DNA of 64,000 nt from Thermostichus vulcanus str. 'Rupite' (GTDB lineage Bacteria; Cyanobacteriota; Cyanobacteriia; Thermostichales; Thermostichaceae): NCBI RefSeq assembly GCF_022848905.1, contig NZ_JAFIRA010000005.1:6659-70658 (forward strand). The letters run 5' to 3'. The stretch's first letter is position 1; each line of letters starts with the position of its first letter. Both the position numbers and the translations under genes were made by a program. The notes beneath the pieces are model-generated. The model searched no databases. It worked only from the letters and a program-made list of their open reading frames with translations, and had not been told where the DNA came from. Below are positions 2,010 through 14,293 of the stretch, piece by piece.

Positions 2010-2155
2010 CCAGAGCAACCGCTGACACAGGCGTGTATGCGTCTCCCAGTCGATTGGCAATCTCCCAGGGCCTTCAGTTGCCTTAGAAAACCTGATCGGG
2101 TAAGTTAAGGGAAGTGTTCAGCCGAACCCTACTTTTTTGGTAAAGAGGAGAAAGA

Positions 2156-3943
2156 ATGAACGGAAAATCATATAAGTGGCTGATGAAGTCACTTGGGTCT
2201 CTGTCGCTGGCATCCGCAGTAGTGATGCTACCGATGATTTTGGCTGGTTGTAGCGATGACAGCTCTTCCAGCACTGTGCCCCTGCCCCCTCCCCCGCCTC
2301 CGGCTCCGCCGCCAGCTCCCCCGGCTCCTCCGGCTCCGCCCCCAACCCCAACTCCTCAGAACCTGCTGCTCAGTGTCGTTGTTACCCGGACCAGCAGTGG
2401 TGGTTCTGGTTTAGGTGAAACCACGGGTCTTCTGCCAGGTGGTACAGTTACCGGTGTTAGCATTGACACCTCTTTCCGTTTCCGTTTCGGGACTTCTGTC
2501 AATGCGGCTCCCTTCGCGTCATCCTTCACGATTCGTGCCAGCAGCGGGGCTACCGTTTCCACAACCTGTGAGTTCAACTTTGACTCTACAGAAGTTGTCT
2601 GCACTCCCAACTCGCCGTTGGTGAATGATCAGACCTACACTCTGACCATTTCTAATGTGCCAGATCTGTTTGCGGATGGACGGCCTTTGTTCCCCAGTCC
2701 ACAGACTTTCACCTTCACCACTGGCGCGACTGCGGTTGGGCCTGGCCCGATTAGCTTCTTGGCCAGTCAGTTTGCTGCAGTGACCCCGAATGGTCAGATC
2801 TTCTCTAACCCGGTGGTGATTCCGGTGGGTTACGGTATTCGCCGGACTAGCCCAGCTGAGAATGTGCCGGTGGGTGTGCGCACCGACTATCGTGCGCTGT
2901 TGTCCTTCCCGATTCCGTCTTCGATTCCTGCCAACGCGGTGGTGCAGAGTGCGCGGTTGACCTTGGTGCAGCTACCGTCGAATGACAGTGTTTCTCTGCC
3001 TGGGTTTGGGGATACGGGTCTGGGCTTTTTCTTCTTGGATCCGACTCCGCACAACATTCCTGCGAACAACGTGGTGTTCCAGGAAGTGACCTTGGGTGCA
3101 CCCAACAATGTGGTTTCTAGCGATTTCTTTGCTCCTGCCTCGACTCCGAGTTTCATTGCTTTGAGCATCAATGGCAATGTACTGGGTGGGGATATATCGG
3201 CAGGGCCGCGGGTGGCTGATGTGGCACCGGGTGTGCAGCGTTCTGTTTCGGGTAGCCGGTTCTACCAGATTCGTCTGCAGTGTGCCCGTGAGGTGTTCAA
3301 CAACCAAGCCACGCCTTCGCTGCTGAGTGTGGGCACGATTAGTCAGTCTTTCAGCTTTAACCTGCCGACTCAGAATGTGCAGTTTGAAGCCGTGGGCAAT
3401 GCCACCTTCGCCCAGACGTTGATCACTCGGGATAATGGTGGTGAGGTTATAACAAATGCCGCTACGGTTAACGCGACTTTTGGATTGCAGGTTAACCCGA
3501 ACACGGTCACTGTAGTTGTCAGTGGTTCTACGTTTGTGGGAACCATCAATCCTTCGAGTTCCATTGTCACCTTCTCGGCTAGCAATGCTGTTCCGCCTGC
3601 CGCACTAGCTATTCTGTTCCCAGGGAACTCGATTAGCGTCACTACCCAACCTGTAGTTGTAACGGGAGCAACTTCGCAGAGTCAGGTCAATGCCTTTGGG
3701 CAGTTTAATCCCATCTTCTTGGGTAATTTGGCTGCCACGATTGATCTGTTCTCGACGGTGAGCTTGGGTACGGCCAGTGCCAGCAGTGTGGTAGCCAATG
3801 CGGGTGGAGCCAACTTCGAGGTCAGTCAGGGTGTGAATGGTGTGTGCCGGGCTGAGTTTGATAAGGATCCGGGCACGGGTACTGCTCCGATTACCACGGC
3901 GCGTGGGCCGCGCTTGGATGTGACCTTCACCATCCCTCGGTAG
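2156..3943 (+). CDS. Proline-rich Ig-like lipoprotein, copy 1
   Basis: This 595-residue exported lipoprotein has a signal peptide with lipobox LAGC (Cys32), a Ser/Asp stretch, then a proline-rich linker at about 42-67 that probably spans cell wall or periplasm. Residues about 68-190 look like an SbsA/Big_5-type Ig-like domain (it ends QTFTFTTG). The remaining 400 residues are beta-rich, Ser/Thr/Asn/Val-rich and not recognised. The start at ATG 2156 has a strong AGGAGAAAG ribosome site. It is followed by its own terminator and by an almost identical tandem copy. A surface or periplasmic scaffold role is inferred. The Ser/Thr-rich composition and the glycosyltransferase genes downstream make it a candidate glycosylation substrate. 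Confidence 0.8.
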   Translation: MNGKSYKWLMKSLGSLSLASAVVMLPMILAGCSDDSSSSTVPLPPPPPPAPPPAPPAPPAPPPTPTPQNLLLSVVVTRTSSGGSGLGETTGLLPGGTVTGVSIDTSFRFRFGTSVNAAPFASSFTIRASSGATVSTTCEFNFDSTEVVCTPNSPLVNDQTYTLTISNVPDLFADGRPLFPSPQTFTFTTGATAVGPGPISFLASQFAAVTPNGQIFSNPVVIPVGYGIRRTSPAENVPVGVRTDYRALLSFPIPSSIPANAVVQSARLTLVQLPSNDSVSLPGFGDTGLGFFFLDPTPHNIPANNVVFQEVTLGAPNNVVSSDFFAPASTPSFIALSINGNVLGGDISAGPRVADVAPGVQRSVSGSRFYQIRLQCAREVFNNQATPSLLSVGTISQSFSFNLPTQNVQFEAVGNATFAQTLITRDNGGEVITNAATVNATFGLQVNPNTVTVVVSGSTFVGTINPSSSIVTFSASNAVPPAALAILFPGNSISVTTQPVVVTGATSQSQVNAFGQFNPIFLGNLAATIDLFSTVSLGTASASSVVANAGGANFEVSQGVNGVCRAEFDKDPGTGTAPITTARGPRLDVTFTIPR

Positions 3944-3982
3944 AGGGTTGCTCTGATGAGCTAGTTTTCTAGGCCAACAGTG

Positions 3983-4014
3983 AAGCGGGTGCTGAAACCT
4001 CAGGCCCGCTTTTT
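3983..4014 (+). terminator. Terminator of lipoprotein copy 1
   Basis: AAGCGGG pairs with CCCGCTT around an inner CTGA/TCAG stem, followed by T5. The sequence is duplicated with the gene. Confidence 0.85.
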
Positions 4015-4055
4015 CTACACTCTCTCTACTTTGGCTTTGGGAACATGCTTTATGT

Positions 4056-6060
4056 CCAGAGCAACCGCTGACACAGGCGTGTATGCGTCTCCCAGTCGAT
4101 TGGCAATCTCCCAGGGCCTTCAGTTGCCTTAGAAAACCTGATCGGGTAAGTTAAGGGAAGTGTTCAGCCGAACCCTACTTTTTTGGTAAAGAGGAGAAAG
4201 AATGAACGGAAAATCATATAAGTGGCTGATGAAGTCACTTGGGTCTCTGTCGCTGGCATCCGCAGTAGTGATGCTACCGATGATTTTGGCTGGTTGTAGC
4301 GATGACAGCTCTTCCAGCACTGTGCCCCTGCCCCCTCCCCCGCCTCCGGCTCCGCCGCCAGCTCCCCCGGCTCCTCCGGCTCCGCCCCCAACCCCAACTC
4401 CTCAGAACCTGCTGCTCAGTGTCGTTGTTACCCGGACCAGCAGTGGTGGTTCTGGTTTAGGTGAAACCACGGGTCTTCTGCCAGGTGGTACAGTTACCGG
4501 TGTTAGCATTGACACCTCTTTCCGTTTCCGTTTCGGGACTTCTGTCAATGCGGCTCCCTTCGCGTCATCCTTCACGATTCGTGCCAGCAGCGGGGCTACC
4601 GTTTCCACAACCTGTGAGTTCAACTTTGACTCTACAGAAGTTGTCTGCACTCCCAACTCGCCGTTGGTGAATGATCAGACCTACACTCTGACCATTTCTA
4701 ATGTGCCAGATCTGTTTGCGGATGGACGGCCTTTGTTCCCCAGTCCACAGACTTTCACCTTCACCACTGGCGCGACTGCGGTTGGGCCTGGCCCGATTAG
4801 CTTCTTGGCCAGTCAGTTTGCTGCAGTGACCCCGAATGGTCAGATCTTCTCTAACCCGGTGGTGATTCCGGTGGGTTACGGTATTCGCCGGACTAGCCCA
4901 GCTGAGAATGTGCCGGTGGGTGTGCGCACCGACTATCGTGCGCTGTTGTCCTTCCCGATTCCGTCTTCGATTCCTGCCAACGCGGTGGTGCAGAGTGCGC
5001 GGTTGACCTTGGTGCAGCTACCGTCGAATGACAGTGTTTCTCTGCCTGGGTTTGGGGATACGGGTCTGGGCTTTTTCTTCTTGGATCCGACTCCGCACAA
5101 CATTCCTGCGAACAACGTGGTGTTCCAGGAAGTGACCTTGGGTGCACCCAACAATGTGGTTTCTAGCGATTTCTTTGCTCCTGCCTCGACTCCGAGTTTC
5201 ATTGCTTTGAGCATCAATGGCAATGTACTGGGTGGGGATATATCGGCAGGGCCGCGGGTGGCTGATGTGGCACCGGGTGTGCAGCGTTCTGTTTCGGGTA
5301 GCCGGTTCTACCAGATTCGTCTGCAGTGTGCCCGTGAGGTGTTCAACAACCAAGCCACGCCTTCGCTGCTGAGTGTGGGCACGATTAGTCAGTCTTTCAG
5401 CTTTAACCTGCCGACTCAGAATGTGCAGTTTGAAGCCGTGGGCAATGCCACCTTCGCCCAGACGTTGATCACTCGGGATAATGGTGGTGAGGTTATAACA
5501 AATGCCGCTACGGTTAACGCGACTTTTGGATTGCAGGTTAACCCGAACACGGTCACTGTAGTTGTCAGTGGTTCTACGTTTGTGGGAACCATCAATCCTT
5601 CGAGTTCCATTGTCACCTTCTCGGCTAGCAATGCTGTTCCGCCTGCCGCACTAGCTATTCTGTTCCCAGGGAACTCGATTAGCGTCACTACCCAACCTGT
5701 AGTTGTAACGGGAGCAACTTCGCAGAGTCAGGTCAATGCCTTTGGGCAGTTTAATCCCATCTTCTTGGGTAATTTGGCTGCCACGATTGATCTGTTCTCG
5801 ACGGTGAGCTTGGGTACGGCCAGTGCCAGCAGTGTGGTAGCCAATGCGGGTGGAGCCAACTTCGAGGTCAGCCAAGGTAGCAACGGTGTGTGCCGGGCTG
5901 AGTTTGATAAGGACCCTGGCACGGGTACTGCCCCGATCACCACGGCTCGTGGGCCCCGCTTGGATGTGACCTTCACCATCCCTCGGTAGAGGGTTGCTCT
6001 GATGAGCTAGTTTTCTAGGCCAACAGTGAAGCGGGTGCTGAAACCTCAGGCCCGCTTTTT
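4056..6060 (+). repeat. Tandem duplication unit 2 (2005 bp)
   Basis: This is the second copy of 2010-4014. The differences I found by eye, 12 substitutions, all fall within 5872-5956, opposite 3826-3910. The leader, the rest of the gene and the 3' region look identical. Confidence 0.95.
4202..5989 (+). CDS. Proline-rich Ig-like lipoprotein, copy 2
   Basis: This is a 595-residue near-identical copy of the preceding lipoprotein: same lipobox (Cys32), proline linker, Ig-like domain and ribosome site. The only amino-acid difference is Val to Ser in the motif SQG(V/S)NGVC near the C-terminus. The sequence upstream of the shared leader differs from copy 1, so copy 2 either uses a different promoter (a weak TTTATG lies at 4050) or depends on read-through past the copy 1 terminator. 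The next gene downstream encodes the OGT-like glycosyltransferase. Two identical loci in tandem can recombine to change copy number. Confidence 0.8.
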   Translation: MNGKSYKWLMKSLGSLSLASAVVMLPMILAGCSDDSSSSTVPLPPPPPPAPPPAPPAPPAPPPTPTPQNLLLSVVVTRTSSGGSGLGETTGLLPGGTVTGVSIDTSFRFRFGTSVNAAPFASSFTIRASSGATVSTTCEFNFDSTEVVCTPNSPLVNDQTYTLTISNVPDLFADGRPLFPSPQTFTFTTGATAVGPGPISFLASQFAAVTPNGQIFSNPVVIPVGYGIRRTSPAENVPVGVRTDYRALLSFPIPSSIPANAVVQSARLTLVQLPSNDSVSLPGFGDTGLGFFFLDPTPHNIPANNVVFQEVTLGAPNNVVSSDFFAPASTPSFIALSINGNVLGGDISAGPRVADVAPGVQRSVSGSRFYQIRLQCAREVFNNQATPSLLSVGTISQSFSFNLPTQNVQFEAVGNATFAQTLITRDNGGEVITNAATVNATFGLQVNPNTVTVVVSGSTFVGTINPSSSIVTFSASNAVPPAALAILFPGNSISVTTQPVVVTGATSQSQVNAFGQFNPIFLGNLAATIDLFSTVSLGTASASSVVANAGGANFEVSQGSNGVCRAEFDKDPGTGTAPITTARGPRLDVTFTIPR

Positions 6061-6064
6061 TTTT
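6029..6064 (+). terminator. Terminator of lipoprotein copy 2
   Basis: It has the same hairpin as at 3983-4014, here with a longer run of nine T residues. Confidence 0.85.
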
Positions 6065-6154
6065 AATACCAGTGTTGTAGCCCGTATCCTGATTCACCTC
6101 AGGATCACTTTAACTTAGGCCCATTCACCTAGCCAGATAATATAATTAGAGCCT

Positions 6155-8998
6155 GTGAAGTTCAAGGATCCAGCTCAAGTGACACCCGATACCTTTGCGG
6201 CAACCTTTCAAGCGGCAACCCAGTGGCATCAGTCTGGAGAACTGCAGCAGGCAGAGGCGGCCTATCGTCAGGTGCTCAGCCTAAAGCCCGACCAACCGGA
6301 TGTACTGCACCTTCTGGGCATTCTTTACTATCAAACGGGTCATCTTGAGGAGGCGGTGGCTTTAATTTCTCAAGCCATCCAGATCAACCCTAAACAGGCT
6401 GCTTTTCACAGCAACCTTGGGGCAGTATTCCAGGCCCTGGGCAAGTTAGAAGAGGCCATTAGCCAGTACACGCACGCGGCTGCCCTCCAACCTGACCATT
6501 TGCAGGCTCTATTTAACCTTGGCCTTTGTCATTTTCAACTGGGCCAGTACGACCAAGCCGAGCACTACTATCAGCAGGCGCTGGCCCTTCAGCCACAGGA
6601 TCCACATATCTTGACCGATCTAGCTCATATTTATCGACAGAGGGGATGGTTCTCGACGGCTATTGAACACCTGGAATTGGCTTTGCAAGCTGAATTCACA
6701 CCCGATCGGGCTCGACAGTTGGCGGATCTATACCGGGATTCAGAGCAGTTTGAATCAGCGATTGCCCTGTATCAGCAGTTAATTCAACAAAACCCTGAAC
6801 AGGCAGCCTTGTACAACGGCTTGGGGTTGACCCTGGCACAGCAGGGGAACCTAGAAGAGGCAGTTGTTGCCTTTCGAAAGGCGCTAACACTGGATCCGTT
6901 TCTGGTGGAAGCTCACCTAAACCTGGGTACGGCCCTACTGGATCAAGAAGAACCGACCGCAGCGATAGAAGCTTATCAAGCGGCTTTAGCTCTCCAACCA
7001 GATCGCCCGCGGACTTACTTTAACCTGGCTACAGCCTTTCGCAAGCTGAAGGAACCGGAACGAGCACTTGATTATTACCATGTGGCGATTGGTTTACAAC
7101 CAAGCTACGCCGAGGCCTATCGGGGTTTGGCTGGGTTCTTGTCCGACCGCGAGTTCCGGAAAACCTTTCCGACTGGCATGTTGGATAGCATGTCTCACCT
7201 GACCCGTGCCTTGGGCTGGCGGCCAGATTATGCAGAAGCCTACTTTGAGTCAGGCTGTTTGTTGTTAGACCAAATGCAGTTTAAGGCGGCAATTTCCTTA
7301 TTTGAGGCTGCTCTGGAGCACAAGCCGGACTTTGCCCTAGCTTACAACAATATGGGCATCGCCTATCGTCACTTGAATGAACCGGAGAAGGAGGAGATTC
7401 AATACCGCCAAGCTTTGGTCCATGATCCGGAGCTGGGGGAAGCCTACAGCAATCTGGGGTTAATGCTACAAAACCAAAGGCGGCATGCTGAGGCTGTGCC
7501 TGTTTTACAGGAAGCCATTCGCCTTAAGCCAGACTTTTTGGATGCTCATCGGGCACTGGGTTCTGCCTACAAAGATTTGAACCGTTTGGCAGAGTCTGTG
7601 GAGTCTTTTGAGCGAGCTTTAGAGATTAACCCGGAGGATCCTTCTACTTACGCTGGGCTGGCAGGTACGCTCCTACAACAATGTCGGCATGATGAAGCCA
7701 TCAAAGCCTATCGCAAATCGGCCAAGCTGGCTCCGGGGGTGATTGCTTTCCACGGCAACATCCTGATGGGCTTACACTATGCTCCTGATTTTGACCCCGA
7801 TGAAACTTACCGGGAGCATAAAAAATGGGGCGATGCCTATCAAGCTTCGGTAGCTCAGTACCGCCGACCCTATCATCGGGATCGAGATATGAAGCGCCCG
7901 TTGAACATCGGCTATATCTCAGGTGACTTCAAATTGCACTCGGTTAGCTTATTTTTCGAGCATGTCTATAACCATCATGATCACGAGCAATTTAAGATTC
8001 ACTGTTATTCGAATGGGCCAACTTCTGATGCCGTAACAGAACGGATGAGGGAAAAAGCGGATGTTTGGCATGATATTTCTAAAACATCCTCAGATTTCGA
8101 GGTGGCGACTTTAATTCATGAAGACAAGATCGATATTTTGGTAGACTTGGCGGGACATACAGGTTACAACCGACTCAATGTGCTGGCCTTAAAACCGGCT
8201 CCTATTCAAGCGACTTATCTGGGATATCCAGACACAACGGGTTTGAGTCTGGTGGATTATCGAATTACGGATGCTTATGCAGATCCGCCCGGTATGACCG
8301 AGAGATATCACACGGAAAAGTTAATTCGGCTGCCCAAGAGCTTCTTATGCTACAACCCCATTGATGCTTTTCCGCCAGTATCGGAACTGCCTGCTTTGGC
8401 AACAGGCTACATTACCTTTGGCTGCTGCAACAATGCCACTAAAATTACCCCCAATGTGGTGGAGGTATGGGCGGAAATTTTGAAGCGGTTGCCCACCGCT
8501 CGGCTGTTGCTGAAAAATATGCGCTACACCGACCGCAGTGTGTGTGAGATTTTCTGGGAACGTTTCGAGCGCTGCGGAGTTGAGCGGGAACGGGTGCATT
8601 TGGTAGGTGATCGGCAAGGGTTTCTCGAACATTTCCAGGTTTATAGCGAAGTTGATATTGGCTTAGATCCGTTCCCCTACAACGGCACTACGACTACCTG
8701 TGAAACCTTGTGGGGAGGGGTACCGGTGGTTGTTCTGGCTGGGAACGCCCATGTGTGCCGAGTGGGTGTTTCTATCCTCACCAATGTCGGGCTTCCGGAG
8801 CTGATTGGGCAAACTCGTGAAGAATATGTAGAAATAGCTGTGCGTCTGGCGGAAGATCTCCCTCGGTTGCGAGACCTGCGGCACAATTTGCGCTCCATGA
8901 TGGAGGCATCGCCGCTACGGGATCCACAGGCTCACGCACGTGCTCTGGAACGGGCCTATCGGCAAATGTGGAAAGCCCTTGTGGTTAGCGGTCAGTAG
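6155..8998 (+). CDS. TPR protein with O-GlcNAc transferase (GT41, SPINDLY/OGT-like) domain
   Basis: This 947-residue cytosolic protein has about 13 tetratricopeptide repeats (about 10-545; NLG, A and P consensus positions are clear) and a GT41 catalytic region (about 575-940). GT41 enzymes move a nucleotide-activated sugar to Ser/Thr of proteins. Visible family motifs are LNIGYISGDF near 580 with the His of LHSVSLFFEH near 594, DLAGHTGYNRL, PIQATYLGYPDTTG, the ITFGCCNNATKITP region with the conserved Lys, and DPFPYNGTTTTCETLWGG near 839. Start codon is GTG 6155 with a weak ribosome site. Neighbours are a Ser/Thr-rich lipoprotein pair upstream and a glycosyltransferase and FkbM methyltransferases downstream on the other strand. 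A role in protein O-glycosylation is inferred; substrate and sugar are unknown. Confidence 0.88.
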   Translation: MKFKDPAQVTPDTFAATFQAATQWHQSGELQQAEAAYRQVLSLKPDQPDVLHLLGILYYQTGHLEEAVALISQAIQINPKQAAFHSNLGAVFQALGKLEEAISQYTHAAALQPDHLQALFNLGLCHFQLGQYDQAEHYYQQALALQPQDPHILTDLAHIYRQRGWFSTAIEHLELALQAEFTPDRARQLADLYRDSEQFESAIALYQQLIQQNPEQAALYNGLGLTLAQQGNLEEAVVAFRKALTLDPFLVEAHLNLGTALLDQEEPTAAIEAYQAALALQPDRPRTYFNLATAFRKLKEPERALDYYHVAIGLQPSYAEAYRGLAGFLSDREFRKTFPTGMLDSMSHLTRALGWRPDYAEAYFESGCLLLDQMQFKAAISLFEAALEHKPDFALAYNNMGIAYRHLNEPEKEEIQYRQALVHDPELGEAYSNLGLMLQNQRRHAEAVPVLQEAIRLKPDFLDAHRALGSAYKDLNRLAESVESFERALEINPEDPSTYAGLAGTLLQQCRHDEAIKAYRKSAKLAPGVIAFHGNILMGLHYAPDFDPDETYREHKKWGDAYQASVAQYRRPYHRDRDMKRPLNIGYISGDFKLHSVSLFFEHVYNHHDHEQFKIHCYSNGPTSDAVTERMREKADVWHDISKTSSDFEVATLIHEDKIDILVDLAGHTGYNRLNVLALKPAPIQATYLGYPDTTGLSLVDYRITDAYADPPGMTERYHTEKLIRLPKSFLCYNPIDAFPPVSELPALATGYITFGCCNNATKITPNVVEVWAEILKRLPTARLLLKNMRYTDRSVCEIFWERFERCGVERERVHLVGDRQGFLEHFQVYSEVDIGLDPFPYNGTTTTCETLWGGVPVVVLAGNAHVCRVGVSILTNVGLPELIGQTREEYVEIAVRLAEDLPRLRDLRHNLRSMMEASPLRDPQAHARALERAYRQMWKALVVSGQ

Positions 8999-9024
8999 AA
9001 TTGGGCGTAATCTGAAAGGTTGAT

Positions 9025-10170
9025 CTAAGATTGCCGCTCTTTGTGATTTTGCTTCATCTCTGGAGCCAACTGCTCAAAGAGGTTCCAAAACTTTTTGGCA
9101 ACAGCTGACCAGCTTAAATCCTTGGCCCGCTCTAACCCTTTTGCAATCAAGGGGGATCTCACCTGATAGTTCTGAATACGTTGTAAGGCCTCTGCCAGTT
9201 GCTGAACAGATCCTTGACACAGCAGGGAGGCAGAGAGCTGTTCTGCAGTTTGGGTGGATTTAAGAGACTCTAAGCCAGATGCACCTGAACGCTCATCCTG
9301 ATAGCTGATGACAGGACAACCACAGGCCATGGCCTCAAGAGGGCTGTCGGCTCGGAAGGTTGAATGGGAGATCAGCGCTAGAGAAGAGGAATAGGCACAG
9401 GCTAACTCTGGATTGTTAAGGCTGAGGTAATGGATGCCATTGCCCTGCGGCAGTTGAGCCTTAGCAGGATCCACTGGAATATGGCTGGGAAAAGCAAAGA
9501 CCAGCTCTGTGCGAGAAAGTTTCTGCCCTTGCAGGAGTTCCCAGGCTTGGCTAAGGGATTGAATCCCACGATAGTCCGTCAGCTGTTCGGGTAGGACGGC
9601 CAAGAAAAAGGGACGGGTTAATTTAAATTTGCGGCGAAACTCTGCCATCGCATCAGGGGTAGCAGGCTTAGCCCAGCCCCCAATGGCAGGATAAACAAGT
9701 GAGATTTGTTCTGGACGGATCCCTGGATAGTATGTCTGAAAGCCAGATAAAACATCATCTGAAAAGCAGATGTAGTGTGAGGCACTCAAGATAGAGTTTT
9801 TCTTCTCTATATATTCAGATTGAAACTGGCTGCCAGTTTCTGCTTCCAAGTCGTATATGCATGAAATAGAAGGGGTTGTTAGCGTTGTTGTATATCCGGT
9901 TGAGATGAACAAACTTGCATCTAGTTGGTCGCAGGCAGACTGTAAGCCCGCTCGATCATCTTCAGCATCTTCGAAGGAAAAATGGGGTATCTCAGAAAAA
10001 AAAGTCCCTGGGGGCATCCAGGTTTGTCCACGAGTTAGAACAACAAACTGAGTTGCTTTCTTATCTGCAACCCACTCTGCAAACAAACTCAGCCACATGT
10101 GGGACTGATCAATTCTATTGGAACGAAAGTATCCTTCAGACTGCCAGATCACACCATCGATCACAATCAT
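9025..10170 (-). CDS. Glycosyltransferase, family 4-like
   Basis: This 381-residue probable GT-B glycosyltransferase has no membrane segment. The C-terminal half contains SPLEAMACGCPVIS near 275-290, the acceptor/donor motif of GT4 enzymes, and PFFLAVLPEQLTDYRG begins the typical second Rossmann domain. It would transfer a sugar from a nucleotide donor to a glycan or lipid. It converges with the OGT gene (26-bp gap) and is the last gene of a minus-strand run with the two FkbM genes (12-bp gap to the next), which suggests co-transcription and work on one glycan. The N-terminal half is divergent and the donor cannot be predicted. Confidence 0.8.
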   Translation of the reverse strand: MIVIDGVIWQSEGYFRSNRIDQSHMWLSLFAEWVADKKATQFVVLTRGQTWMPPGTFFSEIPHFSFEDAEDDRAGLQSACDQLDASLFISTGYTTTLTTPSISCIYDLEAETGSQFQSEYIEKKNSILSASHYICFSDDVLSGFQTYYPGIRPEQISLVYPAIGGWAKPATPDAMAEFRRKFKLTRPFFLAVLPEQLTDYRGIQSLSQAWELLQGQKLSRTELVFAFPSHIPVDPAKAQLPQGNGIHYLSLNNPELACAYSSSLALISHSTFRADSPLEAMACGCPVISYQDERSGASGLESLKSTQTAEQLSASLLCQGSVQQLAEALQRIQNYQVRSPLIAKGLERAKDLSWSAVAKKFWNLFEQLAPEMKQNHKERQS

Positions 10171-10182
10171 ACAGATCTCCCG

Positions 10183-11052
10183 TTATGAACCTTGCAGGGC
10201 TGCAAACATTTTTGCCAGGTAAAAGTCTTTGAATCGCGTTTGCATGAGCTGATCGTGAACGTTGAGAATGAATGCAGTGAGATCATACGACAGGAAGATT
10301 TCGTGTAGGATGACAGCCATTACCAGACGTTGGCGCGGTGTCAAACTCTCCAACTGCATAAAGTTCTTAGCATAGACGTAATCGCACCAGAGAACTTGGG
10401 TATAGGGGCGATAGGAACGGGCAGAAAAGGGCTTGAGGCAAGCCCCAGAGTTTCCGGTCATGCCATGTAACCAGAAGCCATGTTCTCGAAGGGCAACATC
10501 TACATCACTAAAAAGAGCTTGATTTTTATAGATTGGAATATATTCGACCTCTGTTTGGATAACCGTAATATTTTTTAGGGTTTTGCTTGCGCCTCGAATA
10601 ACATCTAGTTCAGCACCTTGAACATCAATTTTGAGGAAATCAACTTCCCCTAATTCAGGAATATCGTCCAAGCGAGTTGTTTGTACCTCTTCGGTTCGTA
10701 TGACCTGGCAGACATCTGACAATCCCTCAAAGTGTTTTAATACTTCCTCGTCTGGCTTATAGAGAGAGGAGGTGTACCCGACGTTGGTCAAGTAAAACTT
10801 CCGTCGAGAGCCATCACCAATGTAGTAGGGGAGATAAGTTCGCTTAACTTTATCTGCACTTGGAGCTTCAGTTAGCGCCCTAGCATTCAACTTTTCACAT
10901 TCCTCTTTTTGTGGTTCAAATCCAATAACCTGGGCATGTCCCTCCTGAACGAGTTTATCGAAGTTATCTCCACCTAAGAACATAGCCCCTACATCCACAA
11001 TTTTGATGAAGGGCATATCCTTACCAAGGATCTCACTGATTGGGAAAGGCAT
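10183..11052 (-). CDS. FkbM-family SAM methyltransferase
   Basis: This 289-residue protein has an FkbM-type methyltransferase fold: SAM-binding region KIVDVGAMF near 17-25, acidic loop IGFEPQ near 43-48, and the family signature FLKIDVQGAELDVIRG near 139-154. FkbM enzymes methylate hydroxyl groups, commonly of sugars in surface glycans. It lies between a longer FkbM gene (21-bp gap) and a glycosyltransferase gene (12-bp gap), all on the minus strand, so it is most likely a glycan-modifying step in one operon. The C-terminal 90 residues are helical and unassigned. The substrate is unknown. Confidence 0.82.
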   Translation of the reverse strand: MPFPISEILGKDMPFIKIVDVGAMFLGGDNFDKLVQEGHAQVIGFEPQKEECEKLNARALTEAPSADKVKRTYLPYYIGDGSRRKFYLTNVGYTSSLYKPDEEVLKHFEGLSDVCQVIRTEEVQTTRLDDIPELGEVDFLKIDVQGAELDVIRGASKTLKNITVIQTEVEYIPIYKNQALFSDVDVALREHGFWLHGMTGNSGACLKPFSARSYRPYTQVLWCDYVYAKNFMQLESLTPRQRLVMAVILHEIFLSYDLTAFILNVHDQLMQTRFKDFYLAKMFAALQGS

Positions 11053-11073
11053 TACTTTGCTCCAGCAGATAAT

Positions 11074-12603
11074 TCAGATTAAACCGGCTTCGCTCAGAAG
11101 TGGAAATCGATTTGGATGTACAGCGGTTAAGTTTAACGTACTAGGAGGCTGAACAGAAGCCTGAATTGGGCTGAGATCTTTGAGAAGGGGATTATACACA
11201 TAAATGAGGTAGCCAAACTCAGCAAGAACTCTAGCCGACTCAAGTCCGGTTGTTTGACCAGCATGCTGATTCTCAAACATGATTACCGGGGTACATGCCT
11301 CGATCATTTTTCTCCCGCCCTTCAAGACAGGAACCTCTGCCCCTTCTGCATCAACCTTGAGGAGGTCAATGGTTGGATTCCCCTCTGAGATCCACAGTTC
11401 ATCAAGGGTGATCTGCTGAACAGGTTTTGTTTCTTCCACTACCGACATCGGATCGGTAACGATGCGATTGAAGACACTTGCGCCTTCCTCGACAAGGTAA
11501 ACTTCGCCGGGTTCTTCTCCTACGGCTGCCTCGATAACCTGTACGGACTTGTCCAGTTTATTTTGAGTGGTTGTAGCCCGCAAACATTCCAGACATCCCG
11601 GTGTTGGTTCGATGGCGTAGACTTTTCCGGACTTACCCACACAACGAGCAAACAAAAATGTATAGACACCAACATTGGCGCCTACATCAATAGCATTCAT
11701 GCCAGGCTTGAGTATTTGCCTGCACAGCTCAATTTCACTTTCAAACCAGCGATCTTGAGTCAGGAGGACAAAAGTTACAATGCTTCTCAGATTAGGTTCT
11801 AGGTTGAACTTGTATCCTTCATACTGGATCCATATTTCAAGTTTTTCTTTCGAGCTAGAACCCTTGCCTTCTTCTTGAGGTGTTGCTTCTGCCTCTGAAT
11901 CGGGTTCTACTATGGGGGATTGCTCCTGCTGAACGTAGTGATTAAGGGCAAGCTTGAGAGCTTGAATGGCTCTCTCTCTCTGGTTCGGGTAACGACTGGC
12001 AATTCTTTGCAGTAGGAAAGGGCCCTCTGGTTGTGCTTGAGCAACTGCATTCATGGCTACAACCATTTGCGCCTCTAGATCCTCAGGATCAATCGCTGCT
12101 GCCAGCCGCCAGTAGGGCAAAGCTTCAGGCCGATAAGCAACTCCACTGTGGTGAGCTAACCAGCGGGCTAAAGCATGTAGATACCGCTCTCTGAGATCCA
12201 GTTGTGATTTGGCAACTGTTTTTTTGATTCGCCCTGATGGTTTTCCGCCCGCGCTATGGCTTGCTGTAGTATCAGCCAGTTTTGTGGGATCCCAGACTAG
12301 CTTGGTTTCCAAGCCAGATAATCCCAGAGTGGGATCCTCGAGGTAGCGTTCAGTTAGCAATTTAGAGAGAAGATCTTTCCCTTCTTGAATAACGGTATGA
12401 AAGCTTCCTAGAGCAAGTAATGCATGAAGACGATTTAGTTGGCAAGGAAGATGAGTCGGATCAAGATCCAGCCCTTGACGCCAAGAAGCAAGAGCTAGAG
12501 CCCAGGCCGCGCGGCGTTCCCGAGATGTTTGAGCTTGTAGGGCCCGCAGGTGATGTGACAATCCCAGCTCATTATATTCATCGGGAGTAGTACACATCCC
12601 CAT
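11074..12603 (-). CDS. FkbM-family methyltransferase with N-terminal helical (TPR-like) region
   Basis: This 509-residue protein has an N-terminal helical domain (about 1-235, TPR-like; motif RQGLDLDPTHLPCQLNRL) and a C-terminal FkbM methyltransferase (about 290-490). SAM motif is MNAIDVGANVGVYTF near 300-315, acidic loop YAIEPTPGCLECL, and signature IDLLKVDAEGAEVPVLKGG near 412-430. A methyl group on a sugar hydroxyl is the likely product. It is first in the minus-strand run with a shorter FkbM gene and a glycosyltransferase. The TPR-like part may bind the same protein partner as the TPR array of the OGT encoded nearby; that is inference. Start ATG 12603; an AT-rich promoter-like stretch lies at 12632-12640. 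Confidence 0.82.
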   Translation of the reverse strand: MGMCTTPDEYNELGLSHHLRALQAQTSRERRAAWALALASWRQGLDLDPTHLPCQLNRLHALLALGSFHTVIQEGKDLLSKLLTERYLEDPTLGLSGLETKLVWDPTKLADTTASHSAGGKPSGRIKKTVAKSQLDLRERYLHALARWLAHHSGVAYRPEALPYWRLAAAIDPEDLEAQMVVAMNAVAQAQPEGPFLLQRIASRYPNQRERAIQALKLALNHYVQQEQSPIVEPDSEAEATPQEEGKGSSSKEKLEIWIQYEGYKFNLEPNLRSIVTFVLLTQDRWFESEIELCRQILKPGMNAIDVGANVGVYTFLFARCVGKSGKVYAIEPTPGCLECLRATTTQNKLDKSVQVIEAAVGEEPGEVYLVEEGASVFNRIVTDPMSVVEETKPVQQITLDELWISEGNPTIDLLKVDAEGAEVPVLKGGRKMIEACTPVIMFENQHAGQTTGLESARVLAEFGYLIYVYNPLLKDLSPIQASVQPPSTLNLTAVHPNRFPLLSEAGLI

Positions 12604-12691: not shown

Positions 12692-12760
12692 AATTTGCCT
12701 TGAGGGGCTAGAAAAGTTTGATAAGTTAGGAAGCAGTGGATTGAGTTTTAAGGGGTGTTC

Positions 12761-13393
12761 ATGTTGCGCCGTTTCCCTGTCTGGATTACCGTCGTCGCCC
12801 TGTGGGGAGGGATCGCCTGTACCCAGGCAGCACCCGTGCAAGCCCCTGACGAAGTTGTGAATACCTTTATTGCGGCTACCGACAAGGGGGACTGGGGTAC
12901 TGCGGATAGCTACCTGACCGAGCGCTTCAGTAATGCCCTACGGCCCGGCTCTCTACCCTCAATCTGGGGCTTGGTCGGGGAGAATCCACAGATACGCAAC
13001 CAAGAGGTGACTGGCAACACCGCCTACGTCTGGGTGGAAGGGACAAGTTCGCTGGAAGATGCAGGGCAGCGCCTGGGGCTAGATCCCCTAACCCTGCGCA
13101 GCTACTTAACCGAGCCGGATTTTGCGGATCCGAACTACCAACAGTTGGCCTCACAGTTGGTTGGGATGCGCCTGGAGGGAGACACCGTTATCTCTCGCGT
13201 CAAGATCACTCTTTACCGGCAGGAGGCAGGCTGGCGGATCGAGGTTTGGCAACCGGATGCCCCAGAAGGGGAGGCTTCTAGGCCGGACACAACCCCTCAA
13301 CTTCAGCTAGCCCCCCAGGGATCCGAATTACAGAACCCAGGAGCCGCTGATTCCTCCTCAACCGAAGCTGAGGAACCTTCAGAAAACCCATAG
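12761..13393 (+). CDS. Exported NTF2-like hypothetical protein (paralogue A)
   Basis: This 210-residue exported protein has a hydrophobic signal segment (about 7-20), then GIACTQA, which could be a weak lipobox or a signal-peptidase I site. The mature part has the pattern VVNTFIAATDKGDW...Y, typical of NTF2-like/DUF4878 folds, and an internal ITLYRQEAGWRIEVW strand pair. I chose ATG 12761 (AAGGGG upstream) over a GTG two codons earlier. It is paralogous to the next gene: both contain LTEPD..DP...L.SQL and TLYR..GWR.E. The tail (175-210) is Ser/Pro/Glu-rich and disordered. Function unknown. Confidence 0.7.
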   Translation: MLRRFPVWITVVALWGGIACTQAAPVQAPDEVVNTFIAATDKGDWGTADSYLTERFSNALRPGSLPSIWGLVGENPQIRNQEVTGNTAYVWVEGTSSLEDAGQRLGLDPLTLRSYLTEPDFADPNYQQLASQLVGMRLEGDTVISRVKITLYRQEAGWRIEVWQPDAPEGEASRPDTTPQLQLAPQGSELQNPGAADSSSTEAEEPSENP

Positions 13394-13447
13394 TGCATGG
13401 GTGGTTGGGAGCTTAGGCGCTGTCATTGTTTCCGGGATGGTGTTGAC

Positions 13448-14293
13448 GTGAGACCGTGGTTTTTTCTGGTTTTGGCTCTACTGCCTCTGAGCGGCTGCTG
13501 GCAGGTCAAAACAGCTGAGCAGACTTTGCAAGCATTTGTGGAGGCTGCCAATGCGCGGGACTTTGCCACTGCTGAGGCATTGCTCACCCCACGGCTGTTG
13601 CGAGGGATCCCTCCGGGTGCGTTGGATCAATCCTGGCCTTCGGCGGAAAATGCCACCCTTACCCAGATTCAAGAGGTGGGTAATACGGCTGTATACCGGG
13701 TGGATTCGGTTTTGACTCCCGAAGCAGTTGTGCCAACCTTTGGCTTCCAATTCACGGTGGAAGAGTTACAGACTTTTTTAACGGAGCCGGATCGGGAGGA
13801 TCCCCGCTTTCGCCCGTTGAGATCTCAGTTGGCTTTTTATGAGCCTTTAGAGGATGGGCGTTTGCGCTCGGCAATGGATGTCACCCTTTATCGCAGACCT
13901 GAGGGGTGGCGGGTGGAGTTGGCTCGCTTGCGGCCCCTGAATACAGAGGTTCTGAATGAGCCTATAGAACTAGCAGAAGAAGGGCAGCCTTTCCAGCTAA
14001 CTGGAACTGTGCGACTCCTCAACCGAACTGAAGGGTGGATTGGGGTCAACTTAGAAGAGGTCAGCCCAAGTTTAGAGCGCTATGCAGGCACCTGGATTTC
14101 AGTGGTTCCTGCAGAGAATGCCCAAGTTACACGCCTTGGCCGCCCTGCCAGTTGGTTAGATTTACAACCTGGGGATCCCGTGGAGATGGAAGGCACCGTT
14201 CGGTTTGCTATTGTCGCTGACGTAGAAGGACGGATCCCGGCAGCAATTACTGCCGAGCGTATTACAGTCATTGCAGATGGGGACAGTCGATGA
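13448..14293 (+). CDS. Lipoprotein, NTF2-like (paralogue B)
   Basis: This 281-residue lipoprotein starts, in my reading, at GTG 13448, giving the textbook signal MRPWFFLVLALLPLSGC with lipobox LSGC; an upstream in-frame start at 13397 would bury the signal. The N-terminal 150 residues parallel the upstream gene (FVEAANARDFATAEALL, LTEPDREDPRF, VTLYRRPEGWRVEL). The extra C-terminal domain (about 175-281) is beta-rich with GTVRLLN and EMEGTVRFAI, resembling an OB-like fold. The gap to paralogue A is 54 bp, so they are probably co-transcribed after a gene duplication. Function unknown; an envelope role is inferred. Confidence 0.7.
   Translation: MRPWFFLVLALLPLSGCWQVKTAEQTLQAFVEAANARDFATAEALLTPRLLRGIPPGALDQSWPSAENATLTQIQEVGNTAVYRVDSVLTPEAVVPTFGFQFTVEELQTFLTEPDREDPRFRPLRSQLAFYEPLEDGRLRSAMDVTLYRRPEGWRVELARLRPLNTEVLNEPIELAEEGQPFQLTGTVRLLNRTEGWIGVNLEEVSPSLERYAGTWISVVPAENAQVTRLGRPASWLDLQPGDPVEMEGTVRFAIVADVEGRIPAAITAERITVIADGDSR

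Follow-up and report, generated by a model that had tools for sequence, protein, structure and literature searches.

A SPINDLY-type glycosyltransferase and two FkbM methyltransferases linked to a duplicated lipoprotein gene in Thermostichus vulcanus 'Rupite': a candidate glycosylation set

In the hot-spring cyanobacterium Thermostichus vulcanus str. 'Rupite' (Synechococcus A/B-type), a duplicated lipoprotein gene is followed by a gene for a TPR-containing family 41 glycosyltransferase (GT41) and, convergently to it, by genes for a GT4-like glycosyltransferase and two FkbM methyltransferases. This arrangement raises the question of whether the lipoprotein carries a methylated O-glycan built by these enzymes, as a sequence-only reading of the locus had proposed. 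The proposal was followed up in the 64-kb window (the whole stretch of DNA analyzed) and by comparison of six genus genomes, i.e., the window genome G000 and its relatives G001 to G005. The open reading frames, rechecked in the window, lie at the positions originally given.

The lipoprotein and its constant leader

The two lipoprotein genes (2156..3943 and 4202..5989, plus strand) each encode 595 amino acids and their products differ by one residue; the protein consists of a signal peptide with lipobox, a Pro-rich linker, a Big_5 Ig-like domain, a core, a variable segment, and a C-terminus. The lipobox LAGC at residues 29 to 32 (MILAGC at 27 to 32, by eye) is kept in the relatives, and a signal peptide with such a lipobox, read here from the sequence, is what defines a bacterial lipoprotein. 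The Big_5 domain (amino acids 93 to 189, E 8e-8) is present in all members, and the core gave a weak match to the CBM96-like NCBIfam family DNRLRE (18.2 bits, cut-off 34). The description as Ser/Thr/Pro-rich needs qualification: Ser and Thr make up 21.5% of the residues compared to a mean of 12.8% in local open reading frames of more than 250 amino acids, and the Pro residues are mostly confined to one linker. An AlphaFold2 model of the lipoprotein alone reached a pLDDT of 35 and was set aside.

What sets the protein apart most is a hypervariable segment rich in Ser, Thr, Ala, Val, and Gly (3311..3814, approximately amino acids 386 to 553, plus strand; 5357-5860 in copy 2). Across G000, G002, G003, and G004 the segment measures 162 to 189 amino acids and is 19 to 31% identical between species, with the flanking core at 75 to 84% and the C-terminus at 69 to 83% identity. 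Its composition is stable (Ser and Thr 25 to 36%, Ala, Val, and Gly 33 to 44%, D/E/K/R/H/C/W/Y 2 to 3%), and it would be the likeliest acceptor region for a glycan.

The duplication that had been noted is borne out by two open reading frames in a tandem direct repeat of about 1.98 kb (2021-4005 and 4067-6051, offset 2046) with 12 mismatches. All of them, mostly silent, fall inside one 85-bp patch (3826..3910 in copy 1, 5872-5956 in copy 2, plus strand; 12 of 85 bases). At these 12 sites, copy 2 agrees with G002 at seven and with G004 at five, compared to two in each case for copy 1, and G003 agrees with copy 1 at four and with copy 2 at one. Since the copies side with different relatives, the patch may be a gene-conversion tract. 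G002 to G004 have a single copy, and the duplication appears to be recent and unique to the window genome among the genus genomes compared.

Copy 1 is preceded by a 5' leader (2090..2155, plus strand) that recurs before copy 2 (4136-4201). About 70 nucleotides of this leader are near-identical in G000, G001, G002, G003, and G005, even ahead of unrelated lipoprotein bodies, and its core motif (0 to 1 mismatch) occurs once per genus genome and twice in the window genome. Leader and signal peptide together (2090-2302 and 4136-4348; L053, L054, L055, and L056) precede at least three unrelated bodies in the lipoprotein family. The comparison suggests that the leader marks a surface lipoprotein locus with swappable bodies within the genus. 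An RNA element in the leader was rejected, as there was no Rfam match and the fold z-score was −0.10. Downstream of each copy lies a terminator-like hairpin (AAGCGGG...CCCGCTT followed by a T run; 3983..4014 and 6029-6062, plus strand; read directly, loop >8). Because this hairpin stands between the lipoprotein and GT41 genes, the two are probably transcribed separately.

The enzymes of the block

The protein encoded at 6155..8998 (plus strand) has an N-terminal TPR superhelix, and its matches to the Pfam TPR and Glyco_transf_41 families exceed the cut-offs (E 3e-57 for the latter); a signal peptide is not evident. It had been called an OGT, and while the GT41 family and the TPRs are upheld, structure match and catalytic residues point to the SPINDLY type. 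The best solved-structure match is Arabidopsis SPY (373 bits; human OGT 182, XcOGT 124), a plant O-fucosyltransferase with which the catalytic region shares 44% identity. K763, H595, S596, Y842, and T846 correspond to K665, H495, S496, Y744, and T748 of AtSPY, which were shown to be essential or important (PMC9715652). Y744 has been proposed to select small donors, the residue in human OGT being Cys917 (PMC9715652). An OGT (UDP-GlcNAc) type was rejected for the window enzyme, which has Tyr842 where human OGT has this small Cys and matches SPY with 373 against 182 bits. Since the enzyme is SPINDLY-type and not OGT-like, fucose or another small hexose seems likelier than GlcNAc. We treat fucose as a preference rather than a result, because the solved bacterial GT41s XcOGT and TtOGT also have Tyr at the donor position with no good donor known (PMC9715652). 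The gmd gene found in all genus members, here 24.5 kb past the window end, is compatible with a GDP-fucose donor and goes no further. The likeness to SPY thus comprises the catalytic identity, the tested residues including the donor-selecting Tyr, and the TPR superhelix, whereas the window enzyme is bacterial, has genes for an exported protein and for methyltransferases as neighbors, and has a donor that is only predicted.

Convergent to the GT41 gene lies a gene for a GT4-like (GT-B) glycosyltransferase (9025..10170, minus strand). Its presence agrees with the original description, but the assignment to GT4 is weak, all Pfam and NCBIfam matches staying under the curated cut-offs (Glycos_transf_1 at 18.7 and 19.4 bits against 26.4 and 27). 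The two FkbM methyltransferases, FkbM 1 (10183..11052, minus strand) and FkbM 2 (11074..12603, minus strand), are both over the cut-off for Methyltransf_21 / TIGR01444, as had been read. FkbM 2 has a long N-terminal extension with no assigned fold; the TPR-like character once suggested for it was dropped, since a TPR match was found in only one of the six family members checked (E 0.2). No polymerase, flippase, or sugar-biosynthesis genes were found within the block. A defence system was likewise rejected, PADLOC having given only TPR-type matches and one weak mad2.

The motif GGATCC occurs 218 times in the window compared to 23 expected, an excess that agrees with the HIP derivative GGGATCCC reported for Synechococcus JA-3-3Ab and JA-2-3B (PMC4390886). 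The counts of five in 6155-8998 and five in 9025-12603, made by eye, proved exact, and the motif is indeed scarcer in the island (1.55 per kb in 6155-12603 against 3.89 per kb in 12604-64000, Poisson P 6e-4). GC content over the same intervals is 49.0% against 55.6%, and 44 to 51% in the single enzyme genes. As both GC and HIP density are low, the enzyme genes fit a horizontal origin. Beyond them lie two small paralogous lipoprotein-like genes (12755..13393 and 13397..14293, plus strand) with no family match, which are present or absent along with the enzyme set, yet look native in HIP density and GC.

Inheritance within Thermostichus and relation to pilin modules

The lipoprotein, GT41, GT4-like, and both FkbM genes occur together in four of the six genus members (G000, G002, G003, and G004). 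In all three relatives the lipoprotein gene adjoins the GT41 gene and the small lipoprotein-like genes follow the set; gene order is the same in G002 and G003, and FkbM 1 is relocated upstream in G004. In G001 and G005, the lipoprotein body, FkbM 1, and the small lipoprotein-like genes are absent, no enzyme set was found at the locus, and GT41 occurs only as distant paralogues; the FkbM 2 domain does occur in G001, as a pilin-locus fusion. The locus itself is recognizable in both by the Uma2-like gene, the ferredoxin region, and the 5' leader (79 to 89% DNA identity), with a leader peptide that is 69 to 76% identical. Behind this leader peptide stands an unrelated, beta-helix-like body. The G001 body has a counterpart of 61% identity in the outgroup genus G007 and none in G000 and G002 to G005; given this occurrence in the outgroup, the beta-helix-like body is probably older. 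In a small tree of the single gene gmd, G004 (with the set) is sister to G005 (without it) at 99% identity, and this pairing suggests at least two joint changes of body and enzymes. Taken together, our comparisons argue strongly for a genomic linkage in which the enzyme set is inherited with one lipoprotein body type.

The FkbM 1 family was searched in 242 cyanobacterial genomes, and the neighborhoods of 47 matches outside the genus were read. Of these 47 loci, 24 have a GT41 gene and 22 an FkbM 2 type no more than 3 kb away, while fewer than one chance FkbM-GT41 adjacency would be expected (a rough figure, with about 2 to 3 GT41 per genome of ~5 Mb). A pilin gene is found within 3 kb of the GT41 in 15 of the 24, and the usual order is pilA-GT41 >< FkbM 1-FkbM 2 (e.g., L167, L214, L222). 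Neighborhood conservation had been named as a check: the set is kept in four of the six genus members and missing from G001 and G005, and in cyanobacteria outside the genus 15 of the 24 pairings stand beside pilin. FkbM of these two types occur in 9 of the 80 nearest named GT41 loci (script count; among the matches listed, all non-cyanobacterial), and because of this low count among the matches listed, pairing with GT41 is common for this FkbM family but not universal for GT41.

Similar sets adjoin other genes further afield. In a Geobacteraceae MAG (L114, 911-5554), a member of the window's FkbM 1 subfamily and a SPY-like GT41 are encoded next to a flagellin, and the same subfamily plus a GT41 adjoin a pilin gene in Burkholderiales (L105) and a lipoprotein-like gene in Myxococcales (L110), the three neighbors being recognized by N-terminal sequence only. 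GT41-FkbM fusions occur in G001 beside pilin, at the corresponding gene of G004, and in L204 and L207 (G231 and G164). The fused proteins comprise 961 to 1283 amino acids (L227:8398-12249, adjoining a pilin gene; L229:420-4214; L204:9593-12478; L207:7048-9951). In two small cyanobacterial genomes, a 916-aa Gly/Asp-repeat protein (RTX-like by eye) and proteins of 428 to 432 amino acids are encoded before the GT41/FkbM-GT41 genes (L204:209-4322, L207:15188-19317); they represent a possible further substrate type.

For an Ogt encoded beside pilA, a part in the glycosylation of pilin has been reported (PMC12288463). The GT41 tree places the four genus proteins in a clade (99/99) of SPY-like enzymes, most of them from outside the cyanobacteria, and unites the pilin-adjacent GT41s, Thermostichus ones included, in a separate clade (97/98), which refutes orthology of the window GT41 with the cyanobacterial pilin Ogt. 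Pilin function is therefore not simply transferable to it. Neither a pilin motif nor adjacency to pilA was found beside the genus set (L049-L052). FkbM 1 branches separately from its pilin-module counterpart, but FkbM 2 clusters with the fusion domain of the Thermostichus pilin locus (SH-aLRT 85). With GT41 and FkbM 1 outside the pilin-module groups and FkbM 2 inside one, the block is a mosaic, similar to the pilin module but not copied from it. The window genome also encodes a second GT41 of 999 amino acids, divergently oriented to an adjoining type IV pilin gene (L224:8365-12465, C2) and belonging to the pilin-Ogt clade. Two more, divergent GT41s (L225 and L226; 696 and 664 amino acids) show no FkbM or pilin linkage.

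A candidate glycosylation set and its alternatives

The reading that we prefer, and hold with some reserve to be probable, is that of an enzyme set dedicated to this lipoprotein, which it would O-glycosylate and methylate in the cytoplasm. There, the SPINDLY-type GT41 would bind the precursor through its TPR superhelix and transfer a small hexose to Ser/Thr residues of the lipoprotein; fucose donated by GDP-fucose is the likeliest sugar and the variable segment the probable site. Elongation of the glycan may fall to the GT4-like enzyme, and the two FkbM enzymes would cap or tailor it by O-methylation. Sec would then export the precursor, which would receive its lipid at Cys32 and end up exposed at the cell surface. 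Gene content, co-inheritance with the lipoprotein body, the parallel to the pilin module, and the conserved catalytic residues are observed; what we infer is the substrate, the sugar and its site, the sequence of steps, and the location at the surface. Modification would have to precede export, since no signal peptide is evident on the GT41 and its proposed substrate leaves the cytoplasm. HMW1C modifies a Sec-exported adhesin in the cytoplasm before export, and we know of no lipoprotein precedent for such glycosylation by a cytoplasmic GT41. HMW1C/NGT resembles the window enzyme as a cytoplasmic GT41 adjoining its substrate gene, but adds N-linked glucose without methyltransferases, and the window GT41 is distant from it (52 bits).

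GT41 and FkbM are often combined in flagellin glycosylation islands (PMC4875605), and because these islands and the pilin modules pair the substrate gene with such enzymes, the lipoprotein would by analogy be the substrate. The flagellin islands share with the window the clustering of a substrate gene with glycosyltransferase and FkbM genes (PMC4875605, PMC5109656), but the candidate substrate here is a lipoprotein and the block lacks sugar-biosynthesis genes. In the pilA-ogt system of S. elongatus (Ogt) and Nostoc punctiforme (ogt), reviewed in PMC12288463, a TPR-GT41 likewise adjoins a surface-protein gene, and in many genomes it is convergent to two FkbM genes, whereas the window has a lipoprotein in place of pilin, a GT41 of another clade, and an extra GT4-like gene. 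The proposal of a methylated O-glycan on the lipoprotein thus gains from the inheritance of the set with the body, from the same kinds of enzymes beside pilins, and from the Ogt precedent (PMC12288463), and loses its OGT type. Against our preferred reading count the placement of the window GT41 outside the pilin-Ogt clade, the lack of a known lipoprotein precedent for modification ahead of export, the hairpin between lipoprotein and GT41 genes, the weak GT4 call, the number of only six genus genomes, and the Tyr shared with bacterial GT41s for which no good donor is known.

Another target of the set, most likely type IV pilin or cytosolic proteins, with the lipoprotein as a mere neighbor, is in our view unlikely but deserves attention: pilA adjoins similar enzymes in other cyanobacteria, Ogt acts on pilin (PMC12288463), and SPY, the nearest characterized GT41, modifies cytosolic and nuclear proteins. 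However, a different GT41, one of the pilin-Ogt clade, already stands beside pilin in Thermostichus, and lipoprotein body and enzymes come and go jointly at one locus. FkbM and GT4 enzymes often act on polysaccharides and natural products, and a match resembling V. cholerae RfbT would also suit a role of the FkbM and GT4-like enzymes, possibly joined by the GT41, in tailoring an envelope polysaccharide or glycolipid, the lipoprotein bearing no protein-linked glycan. The lack of polymerase, flippase, and sugar-biosynthesis genes in the block speaks against this, as do the FkbM-GT41 adjacencies and fusions, which link the methyltransferases to a protein glycosyltransferase, and we consider it rather improbable. 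It is more improbable still that the duplication, and with it the idea of a two-copy substrate, reflects an assembly artefact or a recent neutral event at an otherwise ordinary horizontally acquired block. An assembly of 3.7 Mb in 120 contigs, copies identical outside one patch, and a single copy in G002 to G004 would agree with it, but the flanks and the junction of the copies are not alike, which a simple assembly loop would not readily explain; the patch distinguishes the copies, and the remaining linkage is independent of the duplication.

A broader and tentative possibility, more doubtful than the dedicated set itself, is a modular surface-antigen locus in which constant promoter, leader, and signal peptide are combined with interchangeable bodies. 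The Ser/Thr-rich body with its SPINDLY-type glycosyltransferase and methyltransferases would then be one allele of a serotype-like exchangeable coat, possibly directed against phages or grazers.

The comparative data sharpen the original proposal toward a SPY- rather than OGT-type enzyme, a pilin-module-like set, and linkage to one interchangeable body. Glycosylation of bacterial surface proteins is itself already known, and what appears new here is a lipoprotein in the substrate slot. If the preferred reading is true, cyanobacterial protein glycosylation by GT41 would reach beyond pili to a lipoprotein, and a bacterial SPINDLY-type enzyme would have an evident candidate substrate, where the solved bacterial GT41s XcOGT and TtOGT have no good native activity known (PMC9715652). 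The pairing of GT41 and FkbM beside pilin, flagellin, and lipoprotein genes would then be a general sequence marker for glycosylated, methylated surface proteins.
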